From IMG/VR virus record IMGVR_UViG_3300046747_000467, positions 1 to 45,433 of that record: 45,433 nucleotides of DNA. One strand, 5' to 3'. The DNA is from a virus. Shown here one piece after another: positions 374-43,069 of this stretch. The notes beneath the pieces are model-generated. The model made no database searches. It was not told where the DNA came from and saw nothing but the letters and a program-made list of their open reading frames with translations. How positions within the stretch are numbered: position 1 is the first letter of the stretch; each line of letters begins with the position of its first letter. A program made the translations under genes and the position numbers.

Positions 374-402
374 TGTATAGCAATGTATAGCAAGCAAGTC
401 AA
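374..402 (-). promoter_or_regulatory. Sigma70-like promoter with tandem 10-bp element
   Basis: On the minus strand: TTGACT, a 17-nt spacer, then TATACA, close to a consensus host promoter. The spacer and -10 together form a perfect tandem duplication of TTGCTATACA (374-393). The start codon of the 131-367 gene follows 6 nt after the -10. The same tandem element recurs at 1453, 8540, 8574, 42559 and, in degenerate form, 43047. Confidence 0.75.
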
Positions 403-440
403 CCTATCGCCATCCGGGTGTTTCCTTTGGAGCGCCCCTT

Positions 441-950
441 TCAGAGTTTGGCCGGATGGCGACGGGTCTCGCGGCGGGATGCCGCAGAGTCTTTGAGGAA
501 GGCGACGCGCCGGAGCTCGCGCATGGCGTCTCCCGGCATCAGCTCCCCGCTCATGACCTTCTTGGCAAAGCTATTGGTCCAGGCCATCAACTGGCGACGG
601 GCGTGCTCCCTCCGCACCACAGCCACCTCGTTGTCGATGCGCACCCGAACCGGGGTGACGTCCATCATCTCCCGAAGGCGGAGGGCTTGGATCTTCCAGT
701 CGCCATTGCCGAGGGCTTGCAGGGCCATGGCGACCCTGTTCGGCGTAATGGCGAGGTCGGCGTTCTCGGTGACGCAGAGGGCATCGAAGCAAATGTGGAG
801 GAAGGGGTCGGAGAAGTGCTTCACCTCGAGCCGCACTTCACTCGGGAGGGACTTCCCCTCAACGAGATGGACGATGATGAGCCGCTCCGCCGTGTGCGCC
901 TCGAAGGACAGCTTTTCAGCAGAGGCCACCGCTTCGTCGACTTCACACAT
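441..950 (-). CDS. Hypothetical protein, 169 aa
   Basis: Begins MCEVDEAVASAEKLSFEAHT. It has a mixed alpha/beta first half and a strongly basic helical C-terminus ending RRETRRHPAKL. The start at 950 overlaps the stop of the 26-codon ORF upstream by 8 bp (ATGTGTGA), pointing to coupled translation. I do not recognise a family. It is the largest gene in this early minus-strand stretch. Downstream there is a non-coding gap of about 70 bp holding the promoter at 374-402. Confidence 0.75.
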   Translation of the reverse strand: MCEVDEAVASAEKLSFEAHTAERLIIVHLVEGKSLPSEVRLEVKHFSDPFLHICFDALCVTENADLAITPNRVAMALQALGNGDWKIQALRLREMMDVTPVRVRIDNEVAVVRREHARRQLMAWTNSFAKKVMSGELMPGDAMRELRRVAFLKDSAASRRETRRHPAKL

Positions 951-1023
951 AGCGATACCCCGTCAGCCAGCCGTGAATCTTGAACAGCACCCAGAGGGCC
1001 CCCTTCGCTGCCCCGTCGCTCAC
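943..1023 (-). CDS. Mini-protein, 26 aa, possibly amphipathic
   Basis: GTG start at 1023, preceded by GGAG, overlapping the TGA of the upstream membrane protein (GTGA). The product is (M)SDGAAKGALWVLFKIHG followed by WLTGYRYV, aromatic and hydrophobic with a few charges. It could be a membrane-active or membrane-surface peptide. The evidence is the chain of stop/start overlaps on both sides. Small size keeps confidence moderate. Confidence 0.5.
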   Translation of the reverse strand: MSDGAAKGALWVLFKIHGWLTGYRYV

Positions 1024-1136
1024 GGGCGCTTCTCCAGAGCTGCCAGTCGCCGCTCATGATTTAGGAACGAGATGTAGTTGCCGACGGCCAGGATGATGAC
1101 CGCGACAACGAGGAAAGCGACGCTCCAGTCGCTCAC
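1020..1136 (-). CDS. Single-pass small membrane protein, 38 aa
   Basis: GTG start at 1136 overlaps the upstream stop (GTGA). The product is (M)SDWSVAFLVVAVIILAVGN followed by YISFLNHERRLAALEKRP: one transmembrane segment at about residues 5-22, then a charged cytoplasmic-looking tail. It could be a holin-like or superinfection-exclusion protein or an envelope modulator. It lies in the early operon, far from the endolysin, which argues against being the main holin. Confidence 0.65.
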   Translation of the reverse strand: MSDWSVAFLVVAVIILAVGNYISFLNHERRLAALEKRP

Positions 1137-1453
1137 GGCATCACGCGCCTATCGTTCTGAAGCCAGGCGTCGGGTCGCTGATACGTCGCCAGGTCAGGCC
1201 CGGGGCTCCCCTTGCATTCGGGGCAACGACACGGGCGCCCCCGCTTGTCCTCGCGCCGATGCTCCATCCCGAAGCAGGTCCCGCACATCTGTCGCGGCGG
1301 GTTCTGCTCGCCATCGAGGGAACGGTCTACCGGTGTGCCGTCCCGCACGCAGACGATGCACCGCCTCTCGTGCCCCCCTGACTTGCTCCCGAAGAACCGG
1401 TACGCCTTCCGCTTGCCACACCCTGCGCAGACCTTCCGAGGAACTTCACGCAT
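1133..1453 (-). CDS. Multi-zinc-ribbon protein
   Basis: A 106-residue protein starting MREVPRKVCAGCGKRKAYRF. It has four cysteine pairs in order: CAGC, CIVC, CGTC and CRCPEC, with a KRKAYRFFGSKSGG linker after the first. This is the layout of tandem treble-clef or zinc-ribbon folds. Such small phage proteins often bind nucleic acid or host polymerase, but the target cannot be read from sequence. The ATG at 1453 sits on the last base of a tandem TTGYKATRCA element (1453-1472), so expression may be locally controlled. Confidence 0.75.
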   Translation of the reverse strand: MREVPRKVCAGCGKRKAYRFFGSKSGGHERRCIVCVRDGTPVDRSLDGEQNPPRQMCGTCFGMEHRREDKRGRPCRCPECKGSPGPDLATYQRPDAWLQNDRRVMP

Positions 1454-1472
1454 GCATAGCAATGTATCACAA
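1453..1472 (-). promoter_or_regulatory. Tandem 10-bp element (copy 2)
   Basis: The minus strand reads TTGTGATACA TTGCTATGCA, two 10-mers of the same element as at 374-393. The second ends on the first base of the start codon of the zinc-ribbon gene. No good -35 hexamer is visible at the usual distance, so it may act as an operator more than as a promoter. Confidence 0.55.
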
Positions 1473-1481
1473 GCCGGCGCG

Positions 1482-1874
1482 TCATTCGAGGAAATGTGCA
1501 CACTCGAAACACGGCATGCTGCGGAACGACACGGCCCCACATCGGTAGCACTTCGACGGCGCGAAGAATTCCCCCGGCGTCGTGGTGGCGCCTTTGACGT
1601 TGTGCGTCCGGCACTCCTCTGGAGTCAGAGGCTTTAGAAGGACGAGAGCTCGACCGCGAGTTCCCAGCTGCCCGGTGCATTCATCCCAGTGGACGCGTCC
1701 CCGAGCCTTCAGTCGACGAAGGGTTTCGCTGACGGCGTTAGTCGAAACGATACCGAGTTCGGCGGCAATCTCGCGCCAGGTAGGCGCCCACCCCTTCTTG
1801 GCGAACAAGCGTTCGACAGCTCCGAGCATGCGAGCCTGGGAGCGGGTCAGCTCTGCAGGTGTATCTCTAGCCAT
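1482..1874 (-). CDS. LexA-type winged-helix protein with C-terminal zinc ribbon
   Basis: A 130-residue protein. Residues about 8-65 resemble the LexA DNA-binding domain: LTRSQARMLGAVERLF, then WAPTWREIAAELGI and AVSETLRRLKARGRV. The LexA autoprotease domain is absent. Instead the C-terminus has a four-cysteine ribbon, CYRC...CFEC. It is likely a DNA-binding regulator. ATG at 1874 was chosen because the LexA-like domain begins just after it; it overlaps the upstream gene by 28 bp. Confidence 0.8.
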   Translation of the reverse strand: MARDTPAELTRSQARMLGAVERLFAKKGWAPTWREIAAELGIVSTNAVSETLRRLKARGRVHWDECTGQLGTRGRALVLLKPLTPEECRTHNVKGATTTPGEFFAPSKCYRCGAVSFRSMPCFECAHFLE

Positions 1875-1990
1875 CGGAGTGCGTCCTGGTCGTTCAGATG
1901 GGTGACGGTGAGCCCTAGCCATCGGCAGAGTCTACGAATGGAGGCGGGCTTCACGCCCGCGCGCCGAAGGTCATGAGCGATGGGTCTCAT
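1847..1990 (-). CDS. Small helix-turn-helix-like protein, 47 aa
   Basis: MRPIAHDLRRAGVKPASIRR, then LCRWLGLTVTHLNDQDALRW. The middle looks like a helix-turn-helix (ASIRRLCRWLGLTVTHL), but the protein is too short to assign. The start at 1990 overlaps the previous stop (ATGA). Confidence 0.55.
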   Translation of the reverse strand: MRPIAHDLRRAGVKPASIRRLCRWLGLTVTHLNDQDALRWLEIHLQS

Positions 1991-2217
1991 GGCTCGAGCA
2001 GCTTTTGCTTGAAGGCTTCCCCGAACCGAAGCGCCCCTGTCGGCATCTCCTCCAGTTCCTTGTCGTTCAGGTAGGTCTCCTCGGTGGCACCATGACACGC
2101 CACGTAGAACTTCACCCGACAGGTCATCGAGTCGTAGGTCCGCACGAACGAATCGACGGGCTTGTTGCATAAGGCACACCGCGGACGCGGGAGTTCAAGA
2201 TTCACCAGCTCGCTCAC
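1987..2217 (-). CDS. Small zinc-binding hypothetical protein
   Basis: 76 residues, beginning MSELVNLELPRPRCALCNKP. CALC plus a later C and C-H pair could form one zinc site. It is overlapped on both sides by ATGA junctions with neighbouring genes. No family recognised. Confidence 0.7.
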   Translation of the reverse strand: MSELVNLELPRPRCALCNKPVDSFVRTYDSMTCRVKFYVACHGATEETYLNDKELEEMPTGALRFGEAFKQKLLEP

Positions 2218-2414
2218 TTCGCCCCCCGCAACTCACTCTCGCTGACCCCCAGGGCCTCCGCGAGCTTGATGGCCCCCAGCCTACCGAGGGCGAAGTCCCC
2301 CCGCTCCAGGTTGGCGATGTAGCGCTCCGACATCCCCGCCAAGCAGGCGAGATTTCGCTGGGAGAGCCCCTTCTCTTTGCGCAAGCGCCTGAGGCGCACG
2401 ATGAAGTCGCTCAC
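2214..2414 (-). CDS. Xre-family HTH regulator, 66 aa
   Basis: GTG start at 2414 overlaps the upstream stop (GTGA). The whole protein is an HTH_3/Cro-CI fold: SDFIVRLRRLRKEKGLSQRN, then LACLAGMSERYIANLERG and an AIKLAEALGVSESEL helix. It has no second domain, so it is a Cro-like minimal repressor/activator. It is the second of two Xre-type proteins in this operon; a third is encoded at 4793 on the other strand. Confidence 0.85.
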   Translation of the reverse strand: MSDFIVRLRRLRKEKGLSQRNLACLAGMSERYIANLERGDFALGRLGAIKLAEALGVSESELRGAK

Positions 2415-2641
2415 AGCTTTATGACCTCTCCGCGCTCGCAGTAACGAAGACCGCGAACGATGTGGGTCCAGTTCATCGGCAGCTTCAGCAGCGTCGCGTC
2501 GCTGAGCAGGCACATCGCGAAAGCGAACTCGTTCAGGGCTCGCTCCGTCTCCGTCGCCAGATACGCATGAAGGCTTACGAGGCGAAGGGCTTGGAAGGGG
2601 TCGGGGTGGAACTCGAACGTCGGTTCGTCGTCGCGACTCAT
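2411..2641 (-). CDS. Hypothetical protein, 76 aa
   Basis: ATG at 2641 overlaps the upstream stop (ATGA). It begins MSRDDEPTFEFHPDPFQALR and is mostly helical and acidic at the start. No recognisable family. Kept because its start and stop both overlap neighbours in the operon pattern. Confidence 0.65.
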   Translation of the reverse strand: MSRDDEPTFEFHPDPFQALRLVSLHAYLATETERALNEFAFAMCLLSDATLLKLPMNWTHIVRGLRYCERGEVIKL

Positions 2642-2847
2642 GGTGTCCCCGTTTCTGCCCAGCGGTTCCACCCCGCAATGGCAGCATCGGCGATCTCGCG
2701 ACGCTCCTCGGGTGTGAACGGCGTCTTCGGTGTGAGCGCATCGCAAAAACCGTAGGGCATGAACCGAAGCCCACCACGCGGCCTTGGCGCAATCAGCTCC
2801 GGCTCTACGTCGTCCATCTCCAGCCCGCTTTTCAGCGTCCAGGTCAT
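2638..2847 (-). CDS. Hypothetical protein, 69 aa
   Basis: Begins MTWTLKSGLEMDDVEPELIA. The C-terminal half has FTPEERREIADAAIAGWNRW, an amphipathic helix seen in many small phage proteins. Coupled by ATGA to both neighbours. Function unknown. Confidence 0.65.
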   Translation of the reverse strand: MTWTLKSGLEMDDVEPELIAPRPRGGLRFMPYGFCDALTPKTPFTPEERREIADAAIAGWNRWAETGTP

Positions 2848-3050
2848 GACAATTCACCCGCCCCGTTGAGAGCCCTTATCAGCATCCACTGCAACTTTTC
2901 CTGCATGCCAGGGTCCACCGTGCCGCAAAGCCGAATCAGGGCAGACGAGAAAGCAAGCTGACGCTCGTCTCTCGACTCGATGGCCAAGAGCACCTCCTCG
3001 AGAGCCCGAACCGCTTCCGAGAATCTATCGGTCGCCTCATCGCTGGTCAT
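2844..3050 (-). CDS. Hypothetical helical protein, 68 aa
   Basis: Begins MTSDEATDRFSEAVRALEEV and looks all-helical. ATGA overlap with the preceding gene. No family recognised. Confidence 0.65.
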   Translation of the reverse strand: MTSDEATDRFSEAVRALEEVLLAIESRDERQLAFSSALIRLCGTVDPGMQEKLQWMLIRALNGAGELS

Positions 3051-3316
3051 GACTCCTCCAGGAAGGCGTCAAGCTCACCCCGGAAAGCGTCATCCTCGAT
3101 GTGCTCCCAAGACCGGCGCAGTAGCTCCTCCGCCCTGGCCAGGCGCTCCGCGAGTCTCGGATGGAGGTCCCAGGCCATCTCATGAAGGTCAAACTCCTCG
3201 TTCAGCTCGAAGCGCTCATCCTTGTGCCGGAACTTCTCCCCATGGGGCAGCGCCTCCACCCGGCGCAACTCGGCCTCAGCCTGACGAACCAGCTCCAACT
3301 CTTCCGACAGCTTCAT
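3047..3316 (-). CDS. Acidic coiled-coil hypothetical protein, 89 aa
   Basis: The ATG at 3316 overlaps the upstream TGA as TGATG, matching the other cassette junctions here. A GTG one codon earlier is possible. Begins MKLSEELELVRQAEAELRRV and is rich in Glu, Leu, Arg and Ala, so probably a long helical hairpin or coiled coil. Function unknown. Confidence 0.65.
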   Translation of the reverse strand: MKLSEELELVRQAEAELRRVEALPHGEKFRHKDERFELNEEFDLHEMAWDLHPRLAERLARAEELLRRSWEHIEDDAFRGELDAFLEES

Positions 3317-3340
3317 CACGGCTCCCCCTCCCCAGTCAGC
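3314..3340 (-). repeat. Gene-junction cassette, copy 1 (diverged)
   Basis: The minus strand reads GCTGACTGGGGAGGGGGAGC then CGTGATG. It encodes the end of one gene (LTGEGEP), the purine-rich ribosome site and the TGATG stop/start overlap with the next. It is the most diverged of three copies. Confidence 0.8.
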
Positions 3341-3525
3341 ACCGACCGAATAGCCTCAAGCAACGGCTTCCCCAGCCGCCCGTCCACCGAGTAGGACAGC
3401 ATGAGCACCGCATGGAGGAATGCCCCCGCCCGCACGTCCGCCGGCAGCGCCTCGAGCCTGTTTCGAAAGGCTTCCAACGCAGGCCGTAGCCCCGGGTCCA
3501 GCTCATGTAGGTTCAGATGCGCCAT
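3316..3525 (-). CDS. Hypothetical protein with LTGEGEP tail
   Basis: 69 residues, beginning MAHLNLHELDPGLRPALEAF and ending VLTGEGEP. The tail and the following ribosome site are a near copy of those ending the two upstream genes (see junction cassettes). The N-terminal codons were chosen from the TGATG overlap at 3525 and the AAGGAG before it. Confidence 0.65.
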   Translation of the reverse strand: MAHLNLHELDPGLRPALEAFRNRLEALPADVRAGAFLHAVLMLSYSVDGRLGKPLLEAIRSVLTGEGEP

Positions 3526-3549
3526 CAGGGTTCTCCTTCCCCAGTCAGC
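3523..3549 (-). repeat. Gene-junction cassette, copy 2
   Basis: The minus strand reads GCTGACTGGGGAAGGAGAAC then CCTGATG, encoding LTGEGEP, an AAGGAG ribosome site and a TGATG stop/start overlap. Nearly identical to copy 3 at 3849-3875, although the genes on either side are unrelated. Confidence 0.85.
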
Positions 3550-3851
3550 GTCCACCCGTCGACATAGGCGGTCGCCCGGATGAGGTAGTTCATGAGGAAA
3601 GCCGGCTTCTCGTCCCGGTTCACCGCCGCCTTCAAATCCCGAAGGAACCGAGAGCAAATAGTCGCCCGCTCCCTCCACTCCAACGTAGGAGCATCAGCTA
3701 CCTCGAGAGCCCCCCCCGGCAGGTCGTGCCCAGAGCGGCTTACCCCGTCCGCCCCGAACCACACCAGGTCGACTCGCCCCGTCTCCCTCGCCGCGGAAAC
3801 AGTCATCAGCGGCCCACCAGACCTAAAACGAACAACATCGCCTACTTTCAT
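3525..3851 (-). CDS. YodC/DUF2158-like protein with C-terminal extension
   Basis: 108 residues. The N-terminus MKVGDVVRFRSGGPLMTV matches the signature of the small DUF2158 (YodC-like) family, an SH3-like barrel whose role is not settled. Residues 50-100 form a helical extension. It ends TLTGEGEP. A paralogue with the same N-terminal signature is encoded at 4066-4374, with an Xre regulator between them. Confidence 0.75.
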   Translation of the reverse strand: MKVGDVVRFRSGGPLMTVSAARETGRVDLVWFGADGVSRSGHDLPGGALEVADAPTLEWRERATICSRFLRDLKAAVNRDEKPAFLMNYLIRATAYVDGWTLTGEGEP

Positions 3852-3875
3852 CAGGGTTCTCCTTCGCCAGTCAGC
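3849..3875 (-). repeat. Gene-junction cassette, copy 3
   Basis: The minus strand reads GCTGACTGGCGAAGGAGAAC then CCTGATG, one base different from copy 2. It ends the Xre gene and starts the DUF2158-like gene at 3851. Confidence 0.85.
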
Positions 3876-4066
3876 AGCCACTCCAGCCTGACCCCCAAAA
3901 CCTTCGCCATCCTCACCGCCACCTCCGACCCCATCGGGTGCCCCCGCCCCTCCAACTGCTGGACGTAGGTAGGCCCCTTCTTGAGCAGGTCAGACAGCTT
4001 CCGCTGGGACAGCCCCTTCCCCTCGCGAATCTCCCGCACCCGGTCCGCTATCGCCGAGAACCCCAT
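3851..4066 (-). CDS. Xre-family HTH repressor-like protein, 71 aa
   Basis: Starts MGFSAIADRVREIREGKGLS; the HTH core continues QRKLSDLLKKGPTYVQQLEG and ends LGVRLEWLLTGEGEP. It is a single Cro/CI-type HTH with no protease or multimerisation domain. The ATG at 4066 overlaps the upstream stop. As second gene of the leftward early operon, facing the divergent region, it is a prime candidate for controlling the switch with the plus-strand Xre protein. Confidence 0.85.
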   Translation of the reverse strand: MGFSAIADRVREIREGKGLSQRKLSDLLKKGPTYVQQLEGRGHPMGSEVAVRMAKVLGVRLEWLLTGEGEP

Positions 4067-4374
4067 CAGTTCGCCCTCGCCGCCGGCCCCGCCAAGAACG
4101 AATCCACCCGGTGGAGCAACTGATTCGCCGCCTCCACGGTCGCCCCCTCCTTCAACACCACGGCGCACTCCCTCAGGAGCTCCCGAGCCCGGGAAGCCTG
4201 AGACGGCGTCGGCTTGTACGGCTCCGCAAGCTCCAGGACTACCTCAGGGTAATCCCTACGCTGCGGAACCCCGGTCTGGTCATGCCAGCAACACCAGAGC
4301 CCGCCAAGGGCCGTAGCCTCCACGACCATCCGGTGCCCATTGCTTTTCAGCCTCACAACGTCGCCTGCCTTCAT
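4066..4374 (-). CDS. YodC/DUF2158-like protein, 102 aa
   Basis: First gene of the leftward operon. N-terminus MKAGDVVRLKSNGHRMVVEA fits the DUF2158/YodC-like motif, and a tryptophan- and cysteine-containing strand (GLWCCWHD) follows. The second half is helical. The ATG follows a TATAGT -10 hexamer by 6 nt, leaving no room for a ribosome-binding site, so the mRNA would be leaderless. Paralogous in its first 20 residues to the gene at 3525-3851. Confidence 0.75.
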   Translation of the reverse strand: MKAGDVVRLKSNGHRMVVEATALGGLWCCWHDQTGVPQRRDYPEVVLELAEPYKPTPSQASRARELLRECAVVLKEGATVEAANQLLHRVDSFLAGPAARAN

Positions 4375-4380
4375 GCAGGA

Positions 4381-4410
4381 ACTATACAGCGCAGGACTGA
4401 TACTGCATAG
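4381..4410 (-). promoter_or_regulatory. Likely promoter of leftward early operon
   Basis: The minus strand has TATAGT at 4386-4381, and 17 nt upstream TATGCA (weak -35), with an AT-rich stretch (AAATTTTCGAA) further upstream. The start codon of the 4066-4374 gene follows after 6 nt, the same geometry as at 374-402. This spacing suggests a leaderless transcript. The -35 is poor, so an activator may be involved. Confidence 0.5.
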
Positions 4411-4506
4411 ACCCGGATTCGAAAATTTGCGCGGTTGAGGGGTCCCCCCCTCTCACCCCACCCCTCCCCCCAGGGGGTACCAGGGGCCTGCCGCAGCAGC
4501 GTGCGC

Positions 4507-4553
4507 GTGCGGCCAGCGAGCCGGACTCGTGTACGGCCGGCGGGCCGGAGCCT
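4507..4553. repeat. Two tandem imperfect 23-24 bp GC-rich repeats
   Basis: Unit 1 (4507-4530) begins GTGCGGCCAGCGAGCCGGAC. Unit 2 (4531-4553) begins GTACGGCCGGCGGGCCGGAG. They share a GGCC-GCG-GCCGGA core, and a third unit starts (GTACGC). They could be protein-binding iterons, but two copies are weak evidence. Confidence 0.5.
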
Positions 4554-4726
4554 GTACGCAAGGGCAGCGCTGAACGGATGGGAGCAGACCAGCGCAGCCG
4601 CAGAGCAGAGGCAACCCCCGGGATTCATGCTAGAAGAGCAGGGCCGGAGAGTGGGGACGACACCTCCAAGTGGCGCAGTGGACAGTGACGCCGGCTAGTC
4701 GGTCGAGAGGGGCACCCCGGGATTCG

Positions 4727-4744
4727 GCATACGGAGCCGTATGC
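4727..4744. promoter_or_regulatory. Palindromic operator candidate A
   Basis: GCATACGG AG CCGTATGC is a perfect 8-bp inverted repeat with a 2-bp centre, about 50 bp before the GTG of the rightward Xre gene. A close relative with the same ATACGG and CGTATGCTA segments lies just upstream of the portal gene (37727-37744). A dimeric HTH protein is the likely ligand. Confidence 0.65.
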
Positions 4745-4750
4745 TAAAGC

Positions 4751-4768: not shown

Positions 4769-4792
4769 TTCCCGACCTGCTACGGTAGAGCG

Positions 4793-5026
4793 GTGCATCA
4801 GGGCTACGCCGCTGCCTTTGCCCTACGCCTCCGAGCAGCAAGGGAGTCTCGGGGTCTCTCTCGCTGTAGGCTCTCCTCAATGGCCGGGCTAGGGTCGACT
4901 GAGGTTCGCTGGATAGAGGGGGCGGGTTGTGGGGCGCGGGGGCCTCATGCTTCGACCGTGGTCCGCCTGGCCCGTGCGCTGCGGGTCGACCCGGGCTGGC
5001 TCCTGGTCGGCGACTCCGACGAGTAG
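4793..5026 (+). CDS. Xre-family HTH regulator (rightward operon)
   Basis: 77 residues, GTG start. The protein has the Cro/CI HTH pattern: FALRLRAARESRGLSRCRLS, then a recognition-helix region GLGSTEVRWIEGAG and the C-terminal helix VVRLARALRVDPGWLLVGDS. The loop between is unusually Gly- and Cys-rich. It is first gene of the rightward operon and is bracketed by inverted repeats, consistent with autoregulation and with opposing the leftward Xre protein. Confidence 0.8.
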   Translation: MHQGYAAAFALRLRAARESRGLSRCRLSSMAGLGSTEVRWIEGAGCGARGPHASTVVRLARALRVDPGWLLVGDSDE

Positions 5027-5061
5027 CTGCATTCCTGCAGTCCCGAACTGCACCGATGCAG
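5027..5061. promoter_or_regulatory. Nested inverted repeat hairpin after Xre gene
   Basis: Starting immediately after the stop codon: CTGCAT (5027-5032) pairs with ATGCAG (5056-5061), and inside it TGCAGT (5036-5041) pairs with ACTGCA (5047-5052). No U-run follows, so it is not a classical terminator. It could be an attenuator, an mRNA-stabilising hairpin or a DNA operator. Confidence 0.55.
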
Positions 5062-5063
5062 GT

Positions 5064-5078: not shown

Positions 5079-5099
5079 GGGGAGTAAGCTGGAGCTCCC

Positions 5100-5438
5100 A
5101 TGACGAACTACGAAGCAGAGGCTGAGTTGCTGGACGAGTACAACGCGCAATGGGGCGACCCGAGGCGTTGCTTGCGGCACGGGGTGACCATCTCGTCCAA
5201 CGATGGGATGCACGACGGACTGTGCGGATATTGCGAGGCGGACGCGGATATCGAGGAGGAACGAGTCATGAGCGTAGACGACATGATGAACGCCATCGAC
5301 ACGAACGGTTGCCTCGAGCTCCTCCTCTCCGCCCTGCGCTCCCTCAATGCGCCGGCCCGTAACAAGCGGGAGCGGGCCATGTGCGTCTCCCTCTTCGTTG
5401 ACTGCCTCGGCACGGCCATGGCGCTGGCTGGCAGGTGA
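5100..5438 (+). CDS. Hypothetical Cys-containing protein, 112 aa
   Basis: ATG preceded by GGAGCT. Starts MTNYEAEAELLDEYNAQWGD. A zinc-site-like CLRH...CGYC pattern lies around residues 24-45. The C-terminal half is helical. No family recognised. Confidence 0.7.
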   Translation: MTNYEAEAELLDEYNAQWGDPRRCLRHGVTISSNDGMHDGLCGYCEADADIEEERVMSVDDMMNAIDTNGCLELLLSALRSLNAPARNKRERAMCVSLFVDCLGTAMALAGR

Positions 5439-5443
5439 CTCGC

Positions 5444-7936: not shown

Positions 7937-8229
7937 ACACGAAAGAATTCACCGAGAACACCATCCGCGCCGCGGGCGGTACCCTCGAAGCTATCGGGCA
8001 CTTCCGCCAGGGCGAGCTGCACCTAGTCGACCCGAGGGGCCGCGAGCCGCGCTGGACGGGGGTCGTCACCCTCTACAGCGACCCGACGAACCCTCACGCC
8101 TCTATCGAGCTCCACGGCGTCTCGCCCGACTTGTTAGAGGCCCTCTTGCGGCTGCTCGACATGGGGCCGGCCATGGCGGGGGAAGCTCTCTCGCGAGTCA
8201 TTGCGGAGGCTGCGACCTATGACCCTTGA
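7933..8229 (+). CDS. Hypothetical protein, 98 aa
   Basis: Coupled by ATGA. Begins MNTKEFTENTIRAAGGTLEA. An alpha/beta mix with a Leu-rich helix (DLLEALLRLLDMG) near the centre. No family recognised. Confidence 0.65.
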   Translation: MNTKEFTENTIRAAGGTLEAIGHFRQGELHLVDPRGREPRWTGVVTLYSDPTNPHASIELHGVSPDLLEALLRLLDMGPAMAGEALSRVIAEAATYDP

Positions 8230-8458
8230 AGACCACTTGCACACCGCTCTCCGTGCCATCGACGACGCTATCGATAGCCTGGATTCGGGATGCCCCAAGT
8301 TTGCCCTCCGCGAGCCCATGATCCAGGTTCGCCTAGCTGTCGACGCGGCTATCGCTGCTCTCGAAGATTCCGAAGGTCCCTCTCCGCCAGCATGTCGCAC
8401 GCCTCCCGAATCCAGTCCGCTTCCGACATGTCCGGAGCCCTCCGGCGACGCTCCTTGA
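8219..8458 (+). CDS. Hypothetical protein, 79 aa, overlapping antisense RHH gene
   Basis: ATG at 8219. The first 45 residues (MTLEDHLHTALRAIDDAIDS onward) look like a real helical protein. The last 36 codons run antisense to the RHH gene at 8349-8528 and give a Pro/Ser-rich tail, so the tail is probably tolerated rather than selected, or the true protein is shorter. Confidence 0.55.
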   Translation: MTLEDHLHTALRAIDDAIDSLDSGCPKFALREPMIQVRLAVDAAIAALEDSEGPSPPACRTPPESSPLPTCPEPSGDAP

Positions 8459-8539: not shown

Positions 8540-8559
8540 AGCATAGCAATGCGATGCAA
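8540..8559 (-). promoter_or_regulatory. Tandem 10-bp element (copy 3), before RHH gene
   Basis: The minus strand reads TTGCATCGCA TTGCTATGCT, ending in a TATGCT -10-like hexamer 11 nt before the RHH start codon. It is placed to control the RHH gene. Confidence 0.6.
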
Positions 8560-8565: not shown

Positions 8566-8593
8566 TTGACGGATTGTTATGCAATGTGATACG
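8566..8593 (+). promoter_or_regulatory. Rightward promoter with tandem 10-bp element (copy 4)
   Basis: TTGACG at 8566-8571, 16-nt spacer, GATACG at 8588-8593. The spacer and -10 form TTGTTATGCA ATGTGATACG (8574-8593), a diverged tandem element. It leads to the small gene at 8618 and the ERF/nuclease/helicase operon. A 14-bp gap separates it from copy 3, and the two point in opposite directions. Confidence 0.65.
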
Positions 8594-8617: not shown

Positions 8618-8791
8618 ATGAACCTCACCCGATCCGACATCCGAAACCTCGAAAGCAACGAGAAGGCGGCCCGCCCGAACCGATTCACCGGTAAGTGGCG
8701 CGGGCAGTACTTCTTCAAGGGCTACCTCTGGAACGGCCCGCCAAACCATATCGGCAATCGCAGCGAGGGGCACCCGGTGACCACCCTATGA
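8618..8791 (+). CDS. Hypothetical protein, 57 aa
   Basis: ATG preceded by AGGAGAAC. Starts MNLTRSDIRNLESNEKAARP and continues NRFTGKWRGQYFFKGYLWNG. First gene after the rightward promoter at 8566, and it overlaps the ERF gene (ATGA). No family recognised. Confidence 0.65.
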   Translation: MNLTRSDIRNLESNEKAARPNRFTGKWRGQYFFKGYLWNGPPNHIGNRSEGHPVTTL

Positions 8792-9585
8792 CCGATCATT
8801 CCGACACGATGCTCCCGCCTCCCATTCTTGCTCCCGTCGCTTACAAGCGAAGCGAGTCCCTCGTTCACCTTGCCCCGGCACTGGCCAAGGCCATGGGCGC
8901 CATGGGGGCAGCGGCGAAGGATTCCACGAATCCCCACTTCAAGAGCAAGTATGCCGACCTCGCCTCGTGCCATGGGGCAGCGGTGGGCCCCTTGACCGAT
9001 AACGGGCTCTCGTTCCCCATGTTCCCGATGGTCGAGCCGGCCTCCGAAGGGGTCGTGGTGACCATTACCGCCCTCCTACTCCACGAGTCCGGGGAGTACT
9101 TCGAGGGGAGCATTACCATCCCGACGAAGGATGCTCATGCCCAGGCCATCGGGTCGGCCATGACCTACGGCCGGCGGTACCTGTACTGCATGGTCGGCAT
9201 CGTGGCGGACGATGACGATGGGAACGCCGCGGTAGGGCGCCAGGCTCCCCCGGAGAAGCGCCGCGAGCCCCCCCCCGCCCCGAAGGCCAAGGAGACCCCG
9301 AAAGCCTCTGAGCGGCCGGCTGAGGCGGCCCCGGAGGATGACATGAGGCCTCACCCCGAGGCCAAGGCTACCGACGACCAGACCAAGCGGACCAAGGAGC
9401 TCCTGAAAGCGCACGGCTTTGGACCGGGGGAGCGCAACGCGGGGATGCAGGGCGCCTTCGCGAAGCATGTCACCGGCAGGATGCCAGCTGACCTCACGGT
9501 AGCCGATGCGGACTTACTCATTGCCACGCTGAGGGATGCGGGACTTCGAGGGGATGCGCTCGAGGCTATTGGGGGGCACCCGTGA
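8788..9585 (+). CDS. erf: ERF-family single-strand annealing recombinase
   Basis: 265 residues. The ERF superfamily core is clear: LAPALAKAMGAMGAA, then NPHFKSKYADLAS and the signature AQAIGSAMTYGRRYLYCMVG at about residues 119-138, followed by DDDDGNAA. ERF proteins anneal complementary single strands during phage recombination and genome circularisation. A Pro/Lys/Ala-rich linker (about 150-195) leads to a helical C-terminal domain. It is followed within 225 bp by a Cas4-like nuclease gene, the usual partner arrangement. Confidence 0.93.
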   Translation: MTDHSDTMLPPPILAPVAYKRSESLVHLAPALAKAMGAMGAAAKDSTNPHFKSKYADLASCHGAAVGPLTDNGLSFPMFPMVEPASEGVVVTITALLLHESGEYFEGSITIPTKDAHAQAIGSAMTYGRRYLYCMVGIVADDDDGNAAVGRQAPPEKRREPPPAPKAKETPKASERPAEAAPEDDMRPHPEAKATDDQTKRTKELLKAHGFGPGERNAGMQGAFAKHVTGRMPADLTVADADLLIATLRDAGLRGDALEAIGGHP

Positions 9586-10786: not shown

Positions 10787-10956
10787 CCTACGAGTTTTTC
10801 ACGACCAGGCACCTGAAGATTGGGCAGCTGGCCCCGCCTGACATGCGCGATGGCTGGGACCTCGTCGGCATTGCGGTGGAGACTGTCGCTACCTCGATAT
10901 TCGGGGAACCGAACGAGCGCATCGTCGCAGCGTGGAGAAGGGAGGCGTCGCGATGA
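10783..10956 (+). CDS. Hypothetical protein, 57 aa
   Basis: ATGA overlap with the nuclease gene. MTYEFFTTRHLKIGQLAPPD, then MRDGWDLVGIAVETVATSIF. Small alpha/beta protein of unknown role, coupled between the nuclease and the ParB-like gene. Confidence 0.65.
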   Translation: MTYEFFTTRHLKIGQLAPPDMRDGWDLVGIAVETVATSIFGEPNERIVAAWRREASR

Positions 10957-11948
10957 AACACATCGGCATCCGCAAGGTGAAGCTGAAGAACCTCATCCTC
11001 CCGGGCGACTTCAAGAAGCGCCTGAAAGAAGAGTCGTCCCTCAGCATGGCGGAGAGCATCCGGCAGCACGGGTGCCTCTATCCCCCGCTCATGTCGACGG
11101 ACCTGGAGATTCTCGACGGCCTGACGCGCACCGCGGCCCATTTCATCCTCGACGAGCACGAGATGTCCACCCATATGGTCGAGGTCGAGAAGTGGGAGCG
11201 GGACATCATCATGCGGGTGCCGAACCTCGAACGCCGTCACGACCCCGAGGAGCGAGCCCGCCTCATCAAGGAACTCCACGCGATGTATTCGGACATCGCC
11301 AACGGCACCCCGACCATCACGGGTGACGACGTGCAGTCAGGGCAGACGCTCTTCGACATGGTGGAGAAGGGCGAGCTCGAGATAGTAGAGGCCCGCCATG
11401 GCTTCCCCAAGCGCCCCGAGGGCATCGTCCTGGCGCAAGTGGCCAAGGACATGAAGATGTCCCCCGGGGCCGTCAGGGCGAGCCTACGACGGAAGCCGAA
11501 GCCGAAGAGCGAGTCGACCCTCCCCGACATCGAGACGTGGGGGCTCACGCTCCCTGAGGCCCAGGTGAAGGAACTCCGAAAGGTACAAGTCAACTTCGAC
11601 GACGCGGGGCACAAGCTCTCCTATGCCTTGGGGCGACTGAAGGACGCCAAGGGCTTCGTGCCGGAGGGGAAGCTTCAGCGACTCCGGGCGGCTGTCGAGG
11701 AAGCGTGCTCGTTCGTCCGCAACGCGAGGCCGGAGTGCGTCTGCGCGTACTGCAAGATGGATCCCGAGAAGCAACCGAACTGCGGGGCTTGCTTCGCGAC
11801 GGGCATCCTGCCGGCGAACGCGGTCAAGGCCATCCCGCCGGAGCTGAGAGGCGTGGCTCTGTCTCCGCTGGGGGCGAGCGACGCCTCGTCCGACGAGGAG
11901 CTGGGCGGAGTGGTCGTCGATGCGGAAGACCCGTGGGGGCTCACATGA
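10953..11948 (+). CDS. ParB-like nuclease-domain protein with zinc ribbon
   Basis: 331 residues, ATG preceded by GGGAGG. The N-terminal 130 residues fit the ParB/Sulfiredoxin fold: VKLKNLILPGDF, then SMAESIRQHGCLYPPLM and LEILDGLTRTAAHFIL. A central helix-turn-helix-like region (VLAQVAKDMKMSPGAVRASL) follows, then a C-terminal zinc site CVCAYC...CGAC. No ParA gene is present, so plasmid-style partition is unlikely; a DNA-binding or nuclease role in replication is more likely. Confidence 0.8.
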   Translation: MKHIGIRKVKLKNLILPGDFKKRLKEESSLSMAESIRQHGCLYPPLMSTDLEILDGLTRTAAHFILDEHEMSTHMVEVEKWERDIIMRVPNLERRHDPEERARLIKELHAMYSDIANGTPTITGDDVQSGQTLFDMVEKGELEIVEARHGFPKRPEGIVLAQVAKDMKMSPGAVRASLRRKPKPKSESTLPDIETWGLTLPEAQVKELRKVQVNFDDAGHKLSYALGRLKDAKGFVPEGKLQRLRAAVEEACSFVRNARPECVCAYCKMDPEKQPNCGACFATGILPANAVKAIPPELRGVALSPLGASDASSDEELGGVVVDAEDPWGLT

Positions 11949-35103: not shown

Positions 35104-35364
35104 TCAAATCGATCCTTTCGTCAGCATCCGAATCTGTTGGTCATAGCCAAGGAGCTGCCCGCAGATGCCGCGCACCTCCGGGTCGCTCGAGACCGCCGCT
35201 GCCTTCACGAGCATGTGCAGCATCTGCTCGCGTCTTGTTCTGCATTGCGATGCAAGGTCCTCAGTGAAAGACGAGGTGAGCCATTCGTCCTTCGCCCGGT
35301 CCTTGATCTCCTCGTCCTCTTTCAGGTCGGAGATGCGCTCGGTCATCGTGGTCAGCTTCGCCAT
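35104..35364 (-). CDS. Hypothetical helical protein, 86 aa
   Basis: Begins MAKLTTMTERISDLKEDEEI and is nearly all helix with a Cys-containing middle. It sits between the portal and GroES-like genes. Could be a small head-assembly helper. No family recognised. Confidence 0.65.
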   Translation of the reverse strand: MAKLTTMTERISDLKEDEEIKDRAKDEWLTSSFTEDLASQCRTRREQMLHMLVKAAAVSSDPEVRGICGQLLGYDQQIRMLTKGSI

Positions 35365-39240: not shown

Positions 39241-39546
39241 TCACTTCTTCCAGAACGAGCTCTTCTTCACTTTCGGGTCCGCTTTTTCTTCACTCGCTTC
39301 GGCAGCTTCGCTCCCGGCGGGGTCTCCGCTTGGAACTTCTTCGCTACCACTGGGTTCTGGCTGAAGAGGTACGCTCTCTGCTTCTGGCTTTTGAACGGCA
39401 TCCGGAGACTCCTTGTTTCCCCACACGGTCATCCCATCCCGACCGTTTGCGAATTTGAAGGTCACCGAAAAGCCGGAGAGGCGCGGACCCGCGTGCTCCA
39501 CGGCCGCGACGACCTGGTTGACGATCGACTGTTCTGCGGAGGTCAT
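39241..39546 (-). CDS. Hypothetical protein, 101 aa
   Basis: The start at 39546 overlaps the stop of the polylysine mini-ORF (TGATG). Begins MTSAEQSIVNQVVAAVEHAG with a short beta-rich segment (SGFSVTFKFANG), then an acidic Pro/Ser/Glu tail ending KKSSFWKK. Adjacent to terL, but function not recognised. Confidence 0.65.
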   Translation of the reverse strand: MTSAEQSIVNQVVAAVEHAGPRLSGFSVTFKFANGRDGMTVWGNKESPDAVQKPEAESVPLQPEPSGSEEVPSGDPAGSEAAEASEEKADPKVKKSSFWKK

Positions 39547-39596
39547 CAGTAGGCGCCTTTCATGAGCTTCTTCTTTTTCTTCTTCTTGGTGGCCAT
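39546..39596 (-). CDS. Polylysine mini-protein, 16 aa
   Basis: MATKKKKKKKLMKGAY. Seven consecutive Lys codons (AAG and AAA). The stop overlaps the next start (TGATG), and AGG lies before the ATG. Coupling argues for translation. It may bind DNA or ribosome, or serve as a leader that pauses translation. Tentative. Confidence 0.45.
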   Translation of the reverse strand: MATKKKKKKKLMKGAY

Positions 39597-39602
39597 GTCG
39601 CC

Positions 39603-39959
39603 TCACTTGTAGAAAAGGGTTCCGTCTCCGATGACGTCAACGGAGTCCCATTGTGCCGCCAGGGTAGCACCACCCTGCACTGGGGTCACCGTCACGGCAT
39701 TACCGGAGGCGTCCACCTTCACCACTCGCACCAATGCTTTCCTCCCATCAGCGAGGGTCACCGTCACCGGGCCTGCCGTGGCGTCCACGAGGATGAGGCT
39801 CGAGGCGATGTCCGCCGTGCTCGAGACGCTCATCCCCTCGGAGATGGGGGCGACGACGGCCTGACGGAGCTGGCGAAGGATGGGGAGGAGTTCGAAGTTG
39901 CCGAACCGAAGAAACTCCTCGAGGCTCTTGAACCCGCTACTTCGGACTGTTCCCGACAT
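39603..39959 (-). CDS. Hypothetical protein with beta domain, 118 aa
   Basis: Begins MSGTVRSSGFKSLEEFLRFG, a helical first part, then repeated strands (SLILVDATAGPVTVTLADGR and after). It might be a small virion protein. No family recognised. Confidence 0.6.
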   Translation of the reverse strand: MSGTVRSSGFKSLEEFLRFGNFELLPILRQLRQAVVAPISEGMSVSSTADIASSLILVDATAGPVTVTLADGRKALVRVVKVDASGNAVTVTPVQGGATLAAQWDSVDVIGDGTLFYK

Positions 39960-40182
39960 CGAGTTCTCCTATCGCTTCAAGGATGGCTTCGTAAAGCCTC
40001 TGGCGGATTGCGGGGTACTCGGGGCCGGTGTCGATCCACTTCGCCCGCTGGTCCGCTGAGAGGCTCGCCCAGGTGCGTCGGGCGACTTGCTTGAGGCGGT
40101 CGTCGCCGAGGATGCCGAGAAACTTCTTGTCCGCCTCGAAGGCGACCTGGACCAGGTGCTCGCGACGGACGGGTCCGATCAT
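39937..40182 (-). CDS. Hypothetical protein, 81 aa
   Basis: Begins MIGPVRREHLVQVAFEADKK. Helical with RRTWASLSADQRAKWIDTGP. It overlaps the next gene by 23 bp. Could be an accessory to terminase by location; unknown family. Confidence 0.6.
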   Translation of the reverse strand: MIGPVRREHLVQVAFEADKKFLGILGDDRLKQVARRTWASLSADQRAKWIDTGPEYPAIRQRLYEAILEAIGELDVGNSPK

Positions 40183-40194
40183 GGCGGCGCTCCC

Positions 40195-40707
40195 TCAGTC
40201 GTTCGTGGTGGGATTCACTTCACGATAAAGAATCCCGGCGATCCCCGTGGATGCCGGCATATCGCAGTGAACAGAATCGGCCCCGGGAGAGTGCGACGTT
40301 GTCAGGAAAAGCTGAACCTGGGTGAGATGTCCGGCTGTCGTTATAGCCGCGACGCCTGAGCCCGCTGTCGCGCTCGTCGACGGCGCGTCAGTGAGCAGCG
40401 AGACCTCCTCGACCCTGCACGAAATCTCGCCGGTCGTCGTCTGGTCGTTCACCGCGACCTGAGCGAGTGTGAGCCCGTTCGTGTTCGAGATGTCGTCTCG
40501 GATGAGCGGGCACGTGACCGAAGCGCTCCCGGTCACGACGTTGATGCCGAGATCGGTATAGATGACCGTGGTCCCCGGGGTCGTACTTTCCACGACGCAA
40601 TTCGATCCAGGGATGGTCTTCGCGTTGTACGTCGGAGCCTGCGCCGGCAAGGCACGGACACCGAGGACAGCGACGATCAGCACCAATAACCCAAGTAGCT
40701 TTTTCAT
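40195..40707 (-). CDS. Secreted/virion-associated protein with signal peptide
   Basis: 170 residues. MKKLLGLLVLIVAVLGVRAL, then PAQAPTY, is a clear Sec signal peptide with a PAQA cleavage site. The mature part is beta-rich with three cysteines. Its place among packaging genes is unusual for a secreted protein, suggesting a moron-like insert. No family recognised. Confidence 0.7.
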   Translation of the reverse strand: MKKLLGLLVLIVAVLGVRALPAQAPTYNAKTIPGSNCVVESTTPGTTVIYTDLGINVVTGSASVTCPLIRDDISNTNGLTLAQVAVNDQTTTGEISCRVEEVSLLTDAPSTSATAGSGVAAITTAGHLTQVQLFLTTSHSPGADSVHCDMPASTGIAGILYREVNPTTND

Positions 40708-40733
40708 GACTCAATTCTCCCTTTGCTCAAAAA

Positions 40734-40943
40734 TCACTTCGCGCGCCTCTCGTAGCCCGACTTCATCGCCGATAGCTCGCGGCACTGCTTCTCTAGCGCC
40801 TTCATCTTGTCCAGATGCTCCCCGTAGTACATCCGGGCGTTGTTCTTCACGAGGTCCGCTCGGAGCGCTTCGATGGCGAGCTCCTTCGCTCGAATCTTGC
40901 GCTGTGCTTCCTCGAGAGCTCCGCGGTTGACGGTCGTGGTCAT
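40734..40943 (-). CDS. Coiled-coil protein, 69 aa
   Basis: Begins MTTTVNRGALEEAQRKIRAK, a basic, heptad-like helix over nearly the whole length. ATGA overlap with the previous gene. Function unknown. Confidence 0.65.
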   Translation of the reverse strand: MTTTVNRGALEEAQRKIRAKELAIEALRADLVKNNARMYYGEHLDKMKALEKQCRELSAMKSGYERRAK

Positions 40944-41134
40944 ACGTCCTCGTAGAGCCAGCTCACCATTACCTTGGCCACGCCGCGGTCCGGATCGTCG
41001 AACGTCCACTTGTGCAATACGGCAGCCCTCAGCGGGGCTTCCGAATCTGGAATGCCTTCGCCCACTTCTGCAAGGCCGTTCTCCAGGAAGAACGCGCGCA
41101 GCTGCCCGAACGTCTTTACTTCGCTGAGTTTCAT
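40940..41134 (-). CDS. Hypothetical protein, 64 aa
   Basis: MKLSEVKTFGQLRAFFLENG and later HKWTFDDPDRGVAKVMVSWL. Coupled by ATGA on both sides. No family recognised. Confidence 0.65.
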   Translation of the reverse strand: MKLSEVKTFGQLRAFFLENGLAEVGEGIPDSEAPLRAAVLHKWTFDDPDRGVAKVMVSWLYEDV

Positions 41135-41559
41135 TCCTTCATCTCCACGATGATCTCCTTCATCGGCTCGCCCGAGACGGGCATTTGAACGAGGACGGCG
41201 TTCATCACGCGAGGTCCTGTCTTCTCGGCGGCGCGAACCTTCATGATGCCGCTCATCACAGCCATGTCGACCTTGATGCCCACCGGGGCCTCCTTGGCGC
41301 TCATGAGCCCGTACTTCGCGCACCGAAGGCGATGACGGGCTTGCTCGAGTCCCACCTCCGCCACCCACGCTTCCGACGGCTCTTCCTCGAGGCCCGTTAT
41401 CTCGCTGAAGCGCTGGACGCCGTCCAGGTTCACCATCGCCTGCTCAAGCACCCTGTCCTCGAGCTTCCGGATGCGCGACAAGCGGGAGTCTCCGGATTCG
41501 GCCAGCGGACCGGACGCGAGTCCGGCCAGCGAGTCGGTTTCGAGTTCGTCGAGGTCCAT
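41131..41559 (-). CDS. Hypothetical protein, terminase small subunit candidate
   Basis: 142 residues, beginning MDLDELETDSLAGLASGPLA. Helical with an N-terminal HTH-like stretch (RIRKLEDRVLEQAMVNLDGV) and a beta-hairpin C-terminus. Size and place upstream of terL fit a small terminase, but no direct signature is seen, and four to six genes lie between. Tentative. Confidence 0.45.
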   Translation of the reverse strand: MDLDELETDSLAGLASGPLAESGDSRLSRIRKLEDRVLEQAMVNLDGVQRFSEITGLEEEPSEAWVAEVGLEQARHRLRCAKYGLMSAKEAPVGIKVDMAVMSGIMKVRAAEKTGPRVMNAVLVQMPVSGEPMKEIIVEMKE

Positions 41560-41562
41560 GGG

Positions 41563-41745
41563 TCAGTTTACCTCGCCGCCAAGGCGGCACCCGGTAACGA
41601 ACAGGGAATTCCGATACCTGCTGACTTTTCCGGGTGCCGCCCCGTGAGACGCGGGGGCTAGCCGCTTCTTCCCATGCCCCGCTTTGTCACGACAGTCAGA
41701 TCGTTTCCCGGTGTGCCGGGCTCGGGGCTGCGAACACTTTTTCAT
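41563..41745 (-). CDS. Small basic protein, 60 aa
   Basis: ATG at 41745 overlaps the upstream stop (ATGA). MKKCSQPRARHTGKRSDCRD onward is strongly basic with Cys/His spaced for a possible zinc site. Composition could also be spurious, but coupling supports it. Confidence 0.45.
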   Translation of the reverse strand: MKKCSQPRARHTGKRSDCRDKAGHGKKRLAPASHGAAPGKVSRYRNSLFVTGCRLGGEVN

Positions 41746-42023
41746 CCCAGGCTCACCAGGTCCACGCCATGGACCTCGACCTGACGGACGCCGTAGGACA
41801 TCCCCCGGACTCCAAAAGCCTGCAGGGCGAGCTTGAGGGGGAATTGGTCCTGTCCGGTGGCGGGGTCCACGCATCGAAGGGTCAGGGAGTGGTTGGCTGC
41901 CCCGCGCATGCGGGCCATGCAGCCGTTTGCCTCCGCCTCGGTGTCGAAGGTCTTCCCGGGTAGGGCCACCGTGGAGCCATCGGTCATGGCGACCACGGCG
42001 GTAACCTGGAAGACCGTCTTCAC
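41742..42023 (-). CDS. Hypothetical protein, 93 aa
   Basis: Begins MKTVFQVTAVVAMTDGSTVA, a beta-sandwich-like pattern. Coupled to neighbours by ATGA. Unknown function. Confidence 0.65.
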   Translation of the reverse strand: MKTVFQVTAVVAMTDGSTVALPGKTFDTEAEANGCMARMRGAANHSLTLRCVDPATGQDQFPLKLALQAFGVRGMSYGVRQVEVHGVDLVSLG

Positions 42024-42214
42024 GCGAGGTCGAGCTCCCCCTGCGTCGGGGCCTTGGCCGCCTCGATGGCGGGGGCCACAGCGGGGACTACCCGTGCCGC
42101 CAGGAACTCCACCACGGCCTTACGGGCGGCGGGGTCGGGCAGCATCAGCAGGTGTCGGACACACTGCTCGTTGACGTACATCTCCAGGGCGAAACCGGTC
42201 TTCTTGGTGCGCAT
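42020..42214 (-). CDS. Hypothetical protein, 64 aa
   Basis: Strong AGGAGGACC ribosome site before the ATG. MRTKKTGFALEMYVNEQCVR, then an Ala/Val-rich helix. No family recognised. Confidence 0.65.
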   Translation of the reverse strand: MRTKKTGFALEMYVNEQCVRHLLMLPDPAARKAVVEFLAARVVPAVAPAIEAAKAPTQGELDLA

Positions 42215-42221
42215 GGTCCTC

Positions 42222-42539
42222 CTACGAACTCAGCAGGTCACGAACGACGTCGAGGGCCTCGTGGACCGAGGTCACGACGTAGACTTTTGCCCCGGCACTG
42301 CGTAGCCGCCGATGAGCCTCCACCTGGTCACCACTCGGTACGTTTCCAGTGAGCTTGCATTCAAAGAACACCGCTCGCCCAGCAACAATTGCCCCGATGT
42401 CCGGAGTCCCGGTGGGCGCCCCATGAAGCACACCTCCCCGGACTCGCGGGGAACCGCACTGGATGCGGTAGCTGTAGACGCCGGGGATGCCATTGAGGGC
42501 TTTGATGAGCGGAGACGTGACCTGAGTGCTTTCGCTCAC
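42222..42539 (-). CDS. VRR-NUC family nuclease
   Basis: 105 residues. RVRGGVLHGAPTGTPDIGAI, then VFFECKLTGNVPSGDQVEAH, has the nuclease order G..G..PDI, ECK, Q of VRR-NUC/PDDEXK proteins. Asp (PDIG) and Glu-Lys (ECK) are catalytic. GTG at 42539 lies in the palindrome GCTCACGTGAGC and about 20 nt after a GATACA -10; a longer GTG start at 42662 would cover the promoter element. VRR-NUC proteins act on branched DNA. Confidence 0.8.
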   Translation of the reverse strand: MSESTQVTSPLIKALNGIPGVYSYRIQCGSPRVRGGVLHGAPTGTPDIGAIVAGRAVFFECKLTGNVPSGDQVEAHRRLRSAGAKVYVVTSVHEALDVVRDLLSS

Positions 42540-42545
42540 GTGAGC
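42534..42545. promoter_or_regulatory. 12-bp perfect palindrome at VRR-NUC start
   Basis: GCTCACGTGAGC is a perfect inverted repeat that includes the GTG start codon. It could be an operator or an mRNA hairpin that occludes the start. Palindromes this short also occur by chance. Confidence 0.4.
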
Positions 42546-42558
42546 ACTATCGCACGTC

Positions 42559-42578
42559 TGTATCACAATGCATAGCGG
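42559..42578 (-). promoter_or_regulatory. Tandem 10-bp element (copy 5)
   Basis: The minus strand reads CCGCTATGCA TTGTGATACA. GATACA serves as a -10 about 20 nt before the VRR-NUC GTG; the -35 position is weak. Same element as at 374, 1453, 8540 and 8574. Confidence 0.6.
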
Positions 42579-43046
42579 AATCGACGGATAGTCAGAGTCC
42601 AGCAGGCAGCGGGCACACCGGGATCCCTCGTGATAAACCCCCGTCTGCCTGGGGCTGGTCACGTCCGGTGCTCTTGCTGGAGGGGGTCCCTGTCGGAACC
42701 CATGACTCTGCTCTGCGGTGGTCTACGGTGAAAGGGGGCGCTCACACCCCCGGAGTAACATCACGTCCCGCTTCGCCTTCGTCGCCTCTATGCGCAGTGC
42801 TCCAACCGGCGCCGGGGCCATTACCCGCTCGCCATAGCCGTTAAGCGCCATCCCGTATTCGGGGGCAAAACCCCCTACCGTAGGACGCCGGGACCCTGAG
42901 AACCCTTCCAAGGCTTGATTGGACTTCAGCTTCGGCCCTTGAGGTCGGCCTCCACTGCCAGCAGGGGGCCGTCGCCCCTTATTTCGGCCGCCGCCGTGCA
43001 CCCGGCTAACAGGTACGCTTTGAGCGCCACTGGGAGCGCTTGGCGC
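42579..43046. other. Mostly non-coding region between opposite-strand genes
   Basis: About 470 bp without a convincing long gene. It contains a GGGGG-N5-CCCCC hairpin at 42861-42875, a second GGGGG/CCCCC hairpin near 42733-42750, and one weak 42-codon reading frame (42723-42851). The longer 143-codon frame has biased composition and no ribosome site. A structured RNA or control region is possible. Confidence 0.5.
42723..42851 (-). CDS. Possible small gene, 42 aa
   Basis: MALNGYGERVMAPAPVGALR, then IEATKAKRDVMLLRGCERPL. The product looks protein-like and the codon use fits neighbours. No clear ribosome site. Low confidence. Confidence 0.3.
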   Translation of the reverse strand: MALNGYGERVMAPAPVGALRIEATKAKRDVMLLRGCERPLSP

Positions 43047-43069
43047 TGCATAGCAATGTTCTGCATTGC
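43047..43069 (-). promoter_or_regulatory. Tandem 10-bp element (copy 6, degenerate)
   Basis: The minus strand ends ATGCAGAACA TTGCTATGCA (43066-43047). Overlapping it is a perfect inverted repeat GCAATG-N5-CATTGC (43053-43069). One 10-mer is intact and the other degenerate. It lies between a possible leftward gene and the plus-strand gene at 43205. Confidence 0.5.

Follow-up and report, generated by a model that had tools for sequence, protein, structure and literature searches.

The 45,433-nucleotide virus record IMGVR_UViG_3300046747_000467 of IMG/VR, which over its full length is the window analysed here, carries a short paired DNA element at several dispersed places. Do these places form a class of promoters or the operators of a phage-encoded regulator, and which protein would read them? 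A preliminary description listed six sites, each with two abutting decamers resembling TTGYKATRCA, and proposed a phage-wide regulon run by a small ribbon-helix-helix (RHH) protein, with a promoter class read by a host factor as the alternative. All six sites are present. When the units are compared side by side, the decamer resolves into one base and a 9-bp quasi-palindrome, TGYNNNRCA. The element obeys the rule TGYNNNRCA-W-TGYNNNRCA: it spans 19 bp, reads the same on either strand and consists of two such quasi-palindromes one base apart, whose centres are separated by 10 bp, one helical turn. In our judgement these places very likely constitute a discrete and real operator class which one regulator would bind and read.

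A discrete paired element

With at most one mismatch, the rule is found at exactly seven places genome-wide, four of them perfect: the six sites and a further one at 35236, and nothing else (Table 1). Applied to shuffled sequence at the same tolerance, it gives a mean of 0.27 places and a maximum of 2. The decamer consensus of the preliminary description captures the class in part. Two sites agree with it fully (374 and 1453) and two differ at two positions (8574 and 42559), while those at 8540 and 43047 carry four mismatches each. At up to three mismatches it yields five matches where dinucleotide shuffles predict 0.04, and the fifth, 35235-35254, was absent from the first list. The preliminary description named many equal matrix matches inside coding regions as a refutation; only this one such place (35236) exists. 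In loci of distantly related phages (80 loci, 1.02 Mb) the rule has no perfect and 15 one-mismatch occurrences, against four and three in the 45 kb studied here.

Among centre-to-centre spacings of 9-32 bp, only 10 bp is enriched, with four perfect and seven near-perfect pairs; the other spacings give 0-1 perfect and 0-4 near-perfect pairs. As the rule was derived from the sites themselves, each of the six listed sites was held out in turn from the matrix in order to control for circularity. With scores of 16-31 bits, every held-out site ranked among the genome's top 7. The sole other place in the top 7 was always 35235, which was never part of the training, and the best non-site reached at most 12.4 bits, leaving a clear gap below the sites. 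Furthermore, clustering by unbiased 20-mer recurrence, seeded at 35234, recovered 375, 1454, 8541 and 8573. Some coding-frame repeats scored equally high in this procedure; the spacing and leave-one-out tests were used because recurrence by itself could not tell the class and these repeats apart. A chance or compositional coincidence, to which these repeats and the origin of the consensus in its own sites would lend some weight, is strongly disfavoured and in our view scarcely credible: the leave-one-out recovery, the score gap, the spacing specificity and the shuffles all oppose it, as does the recovery of the class from a seed missing from the first list.

Conserved and free triplets take turns along the element, and the bases at the centre of each unit are free. 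Taken over its full 19 bp, the element likewise forms a dyad, in which the triplets at ±1-3 and ±7-9 are conserved and positions ±4-6 are free.

Table 1. Predicted operators, putative promoters and genes discussed in the text. Site sequences are those of the + strand, with mismatches to the paired rule; ORF, open reading frame.
Feature	Position	Strand	Description
Operator site 1	374-392	-	TGTATAGCA-A-TGTATAGCA, 0 mismatches; over spacer and -10 of putative leaderless promoter
Operator site 2	1453-1471	-	TGCATAGCA-A-TGTATCACA, 0 mismatches; overlaps ATG of Cys-rich ORF
Operator site 3	8540-8558	-	AGCATAGCA-A-TGCGATGCA, 1 mismatch; 5′ of putative RHH ATG
Operator site 4	8575-8593	+	TGTTATGCA-A-TGTGATACG, 1 mismatch; over spacer and -10 of putative rightward promoter
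Operator-like site 5	35236-35254	+	TGTTCTGCA-T-TGCGATGCA, 0 mismatches; within coding ORF 35104-35364 (- strand)
Operator site 6	42559-42577	-	TGTATCACA-A-TGCATAGCG, 1 mismatch; 5′ of nuclease gene
Operator site 7	43047-43065	-	TGCATAGCA-A-TGTTCTGCA, 0 mismatches; mostly non-coding stretch, at doubtful short ORF 42926-43066
Putative sigma70 promoter	374-402	-	TTGACT (402-397), 17 bp, TATACA (379-374); direct reading
Putative promoter	8566-8593	+	TTGACG (8566-8571), 16 bp, GATACG (8588-8593); genes from 8618; direct reading
Short ORF, 78 aa	131-367	-	3′ of site 1
Cys-rich zinc-ribbon-like ORF	1139-1453	-	ATG inside site 2; direct reading
LexA-like winged-helix protein	1482-1922		LexA_DNA_bind, 2.7e-13
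XRE-type regulators, three small	2214-2414, 3851-4066, 4793-5026		HTH_3, up to 7.6e-12
Putative RHH protein, 59 aa	8349-8528	-	candidate reader of the sites; sequence pattern, predicted helices
First gene of rightward recombination cluster, 57 aa	8618-8791	+	AGGAGA Shine-Dalgarno; followed by Erf-like gene
Erf-like single-strand annealing protein	8788-9585	+	cluster 3′ of site 4
ParB-like protein	10953-11948		PHROG 4715, 5e-4; weak match
VRR-NUC/Holliday-junction-resolvase-like nuclease	42222-42536	-	GTG start at 42536; 3′ of site 6

Placement of the sites

Five of the seven sites fall in non-coding DNA with a predicted start codon at most 45 nt downstream, although codon-based gene calls assign 91% of the genome to coding sequence (binomial 6e-5, an approximate value since several start codons were set by hand). 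The orientation toward a gene described for the six listed sites holds for five of them; the site at 43047 lies at a doubtful ORF of 41-46 aa. The ORF that contains site 5 is a small gene adjoining the portal gene.

Site 7 is contained in a stretch of about 650 bp (42580-43230) in which the coding signal is low and Rfam gives no match. The same stretch holds a 20-nt inverted repeat (43135-43154 and 43173-43192).

Promoter or operator

In the preliminary description the last hexamer of all six sites was likened to a sigma70 -10 box. This claim is weak: the usual final T is replaced by A or G everywhere except at 8540 (TATGCT), and a -35 hexamer at 16-17 bp is found only for the sites at 374 and 8574. 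A promoter scan listed none of the sites, and they do not show the features of the sigma70 extended -10 class (TANNNT with a TG extension, together with a -35 or a consistent distance to the start). The sequence suggests that the transcript of the putative promoter at site 1 would be leaderless, because the ATG of the following ORF, at 367, begins only 6 nt after the -10.

The conserved TGY/RCA bases are symmetric, whereas the likeness to a -10 is asymmetric. Such symmetry is that of a site for a bound dimer. The best reading of the element is a protein operator that lies across promoters and start codons.

A host factor could instead read the element, either an extended -10 sigma factor for which it would be a promoter class or a response regulator acting on 10-bp direct repeats. 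TGnTATACA is indeed similar to an extended -10, two sites have a -35 at a fitting distance, and similar exact tandem decamers stand 5′ of genes in unrelated bacteria (Sphingobium) and in Pseudomonas integrative elements. However, the conserved bases are strand-independent as well as symmetric, unlike those of a -10, with the final T changed in nearly all sites, and a sigma -10 would need no further copy at a distance of exactly 10 bp. For the most part, the database matches to the decamer are AT-rich sequence, coding sequence or simple tandem arrays. We consider a host reader rather unlikely, and the promoter-class alternative of the preliminary description is weak.

A CII-like reading with TTGC-N6-TTGC direct repeats was rejected: it fits the site at 374, but the remaining sites need the full symmetric units.

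The candidate reader and its proposed action

Which protein would bind such an operator? The candidate is the product of the 59-aa ORF beside site 3, and we regard its role as reader of the sites as evenly poised. Its sequence carries an RHH-type pattern, a strand VVLQPVRI followed by MSEADWIREACDML. A single-sequence AlphaFold2 (AF2) model predicts helices at residues 11-30 and 36-58, with a low-confidence N-terminus and a predicted template modelling score (pTM) of 0.44; it shows no strand, and a monomer cannot form the ribbon. Among structure matches only two proteins reach Z ≥2, ParD2 (Z 3.8) and NikR (Z 2.9); both have the RHH fold, and both matches are weak. The ATG of the ORF follows 11 nt after site 3 (8540-8558), as autoregulation would predict.

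The architecture of the DNA is consistent with this candidate. The operator is made of repeated, palindromic units placed as for side-by-side dimers, as is typical of RHH proteins, a feature of the DNA that does not name the protein. The alternating triplets and the free unit centre would suit a two-fold β ribbon better than a helix-turn-helix half-site. Likewise, two units one turn apart would fit two side-by-side RHH dimers better than one helix-turn-helix dimer, to judge from known RHH operators (omega, ParR and F55, see below).

Several observations weigh against this assignment. Pfam, NCBIfam and PHROG models give no RHH match for the 59-aa ORF, even at E-values up to 1-10, and searches of the whole genome with RHH_1 and RHH_3 are empty; short RHH family models miss divergent members. 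Foldseek matches are non-significant (E-values above 3). The codon score of the ORF is weakly positive (+2.4 over 58 codons), and a + strand ORF at 8219-8458 with a strong GGAGG Shine-Dalgarno overlaps it with its tail by 110 nt; the codon score of this second ORF turns from positive to negative where the overlap begins. Homologues of the 59-aa ORF are absent from IMG/VR, INPHARED and GTDB searches, and its plasmid matches are non-significant only. In addition, one good site (35236) sits inside a late coding region, and at least five other proteins of the phage have real or probable DNA-binding domains. The regulon proposed in the preliminary description is partly supported: the element behaves as a discrete operator class and one site lies just 5′ of the small gene, but the evidence for an RHH identity is the sequence pattern and the weak structure matches, with no family match.

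The analysis shows the sites, with their symmetry, spacing, discreteness and placement mostly near start codons; we infer that a protein binds them, that the effect of binding is repression and that the RHH-like protein is the binder. On this view a single regulator encoded by the phage, most likely this 59-aa protein, would use all seven elements as its operators. Each TGYNNNRCA quasi-palindrome would be the site of one dimer, and two dimers would bind together on one face of the DNA, a helical turn from each other. The protein would block RNA polymerase at its own promoter (8540) and at the divergent rightward recombination promoter (8575). It would also block short leftward transcription units at 374, 1453 and 42559, the nuclease gene among them. 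This explanation as a whole, with one repressor for seven operators, has in our estimate an even chance of being correct. A bolder version is doubtful: an orphan RHH repressor outside all profiled families, governing a genome-wide regulon in a P22-portal-type phage through a new operator code of two TGYNNNRCA boxes one turn apart, with its own gene and the recombination and nuclease genes repressed and the extra late-gene site serving as a roadblock.

Other DNA-binding proteins of the phage

The same operators might be read by another phage protein, of the XRE type, LexA-like with a winged helix, or ParB-like, as in the dispersed-site systems of KorB and SopB. These proteins bear recognised domains (HTH_3, LexA_DNA_bind, PHROG 4715), the end of the LexA-like gene lies 10 nt from the site at 1453, and the dyad of the whole 19-bp element would also be compatible with such a reader. 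Yet the arrangement of conserved outer and inner triplets around free positions ±4-6 is the reverse of the usual half-site of a helix-turn-helix dimer, and the starts of the XRE, LexA-like and ParB-like genes all lack a tandem site. The XRE family is better suited by a pair of CTGCA-N4-TGCAG palindromes just 3′ of the XRE gene 4793-5026. We hold a reader of one of these families to be unlikely.

The two CTGCA-N4-TGCAG palindromes are perfect (5027-5040 and 5048-5061), lie 21 bp apart between this XRE gene and a gene at 5100, and are likely a second operator pair.

Lastly, the sites might mark the genome in the manner of dispersed centromere- or packaging-like sites and have no part in gene regulation. 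A partition role is known for both RHH and ParB proteins, a ParB-like protein is encoded here, and one site falls within a coding region. Against this, the sites are unclustered and mostly just 5′ of start codons, and no ParA-type protein was noted, although no search aimed at ParA was made. With regard to a ParB/KorB-type system, the protein match is weak and the element, while a dyad, has interrupted triplets. We judge such a marking function improbable.

Comparison with known systems

The closest precedent is F55 of the archaeal virus SSV1, an RHH repressor whose sites, each of two tandem repeats, lie at the promoter of its own gene and at several early promoters (PMC5569661). Viral RHH repression through paired repeats is therefore already known. 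Common to both cases are a small viral protein, of RHH type in F55 and putatively so here, two-repeat sites and a placement at multiple promoters, which for F55 include its own and here putatively do so, and F55 represses by promoter occlusion. In contrast, the F55 repeat is ATAGATAG, the promoters are archaeal, the virus is unrelated, and the RHH fold is established for F55 and not for the 59-aa protein. If the proposed explanation is true, this is a bacteriophage counterpart of the F55 regulon in a phage without close relatives, and its operator has led to a tiny repressor whose divergence hides it from profile searches. Spacing-aware operator scans would then detect regulators missed by annotation. 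The element itself is a clear, testable DNA code with seven sites and an exact spacing.

Arc and Mnt, small RHH proteins of phage P22, place two dimers on adjacent subsites about one turn apart. A P22-like portal gene and an Erf-like gene are also both encoded by the present phage. However, Arc and Mnt serve one local immunity region as opposed to seven dispersed sites, their operator sequence differs, and the 59-aa ORF has no detectable sequence match. Both Arc and the omega repressor of plasmid pSM19035 are RHH proteins, the latter a global regulator which binds arrays of short repeats with one dimer per repeat (PMC4803016). Unlike the present element, omega sites are 7-bp heptads in longer arrays, on a plasmid rather than a phage. 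ParR of plasmid partition systems is an RHH protein on 10-bp repeats (PMC5016525), which form a centromere cluster for partition, whereas the sites here are dispersed and paired. The operators and stoperators of mycobacteriophage L5 show that one repressor can use many genome-wide sites, some distant from promoters (PMC9283540). These are asymmetric 13-mers with orientation-dependent action, whose reader is a two-domain repressor that acts as a monomer and contains a helix-turn-helix, in contrast to the paired symmetric units described here.

Genome context

The two ends of the record carry an exact direct repeat of about 127 bp (1-127 and 45307-45433), which makes it probable that the genome is complete, circular or permuted, and about 45,306 bp (45.3 kb) long. 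A family search of the phage proteins found no tyrosine integrase, and Rfam and tRNA scans gave no matches. The nuclease 3′ of site 6 matches PHROG 93 (1.4e-12), PHROG 5702 (3.2e-9) and PDB 4qbo (4e-4); family-library and PHROG searches gave no match for the Cys-rich ORF.

Occurrence elsewhere

Terminase and portal searches found no close phage relatives, and INPHARED contains no DNA match. The Erf relatives are distant, and the helicase has one distant match. No perfect paired site occurs in the Erf loci of the relatives. The exact tandem decamer is found at 13 places in IMG/VR and 40 in GTDB, of the order expected by chance (6 and 30, a rough estimate of our own); most of these places are in coding DNA of high AT content or are simple tandem arrays.

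A few of these arrays are leads and not evidence. In two near-identical Pseudomonas elements (L113 and L133), an array of TTGCTATACR lies between an integrase gene and a NikA/MobC-type relaxosome gene. In an integrative element of Ectothiorhodospiraceae (L122), an array lies between an integrase gene and an AlpA-like gene. The arrays of all three consist of tandem TTGCTATACR or TTGCGATGCA and are possibly binding sites of the adjoining small NikA/MobC-like or AlpA-like proteins. In Sphingobium (L137:4254-4300), four to five tandem units of the TTGTTATGCA type stand a few nucleotides 5′ of an ORF start, near a flavin reductase gene.

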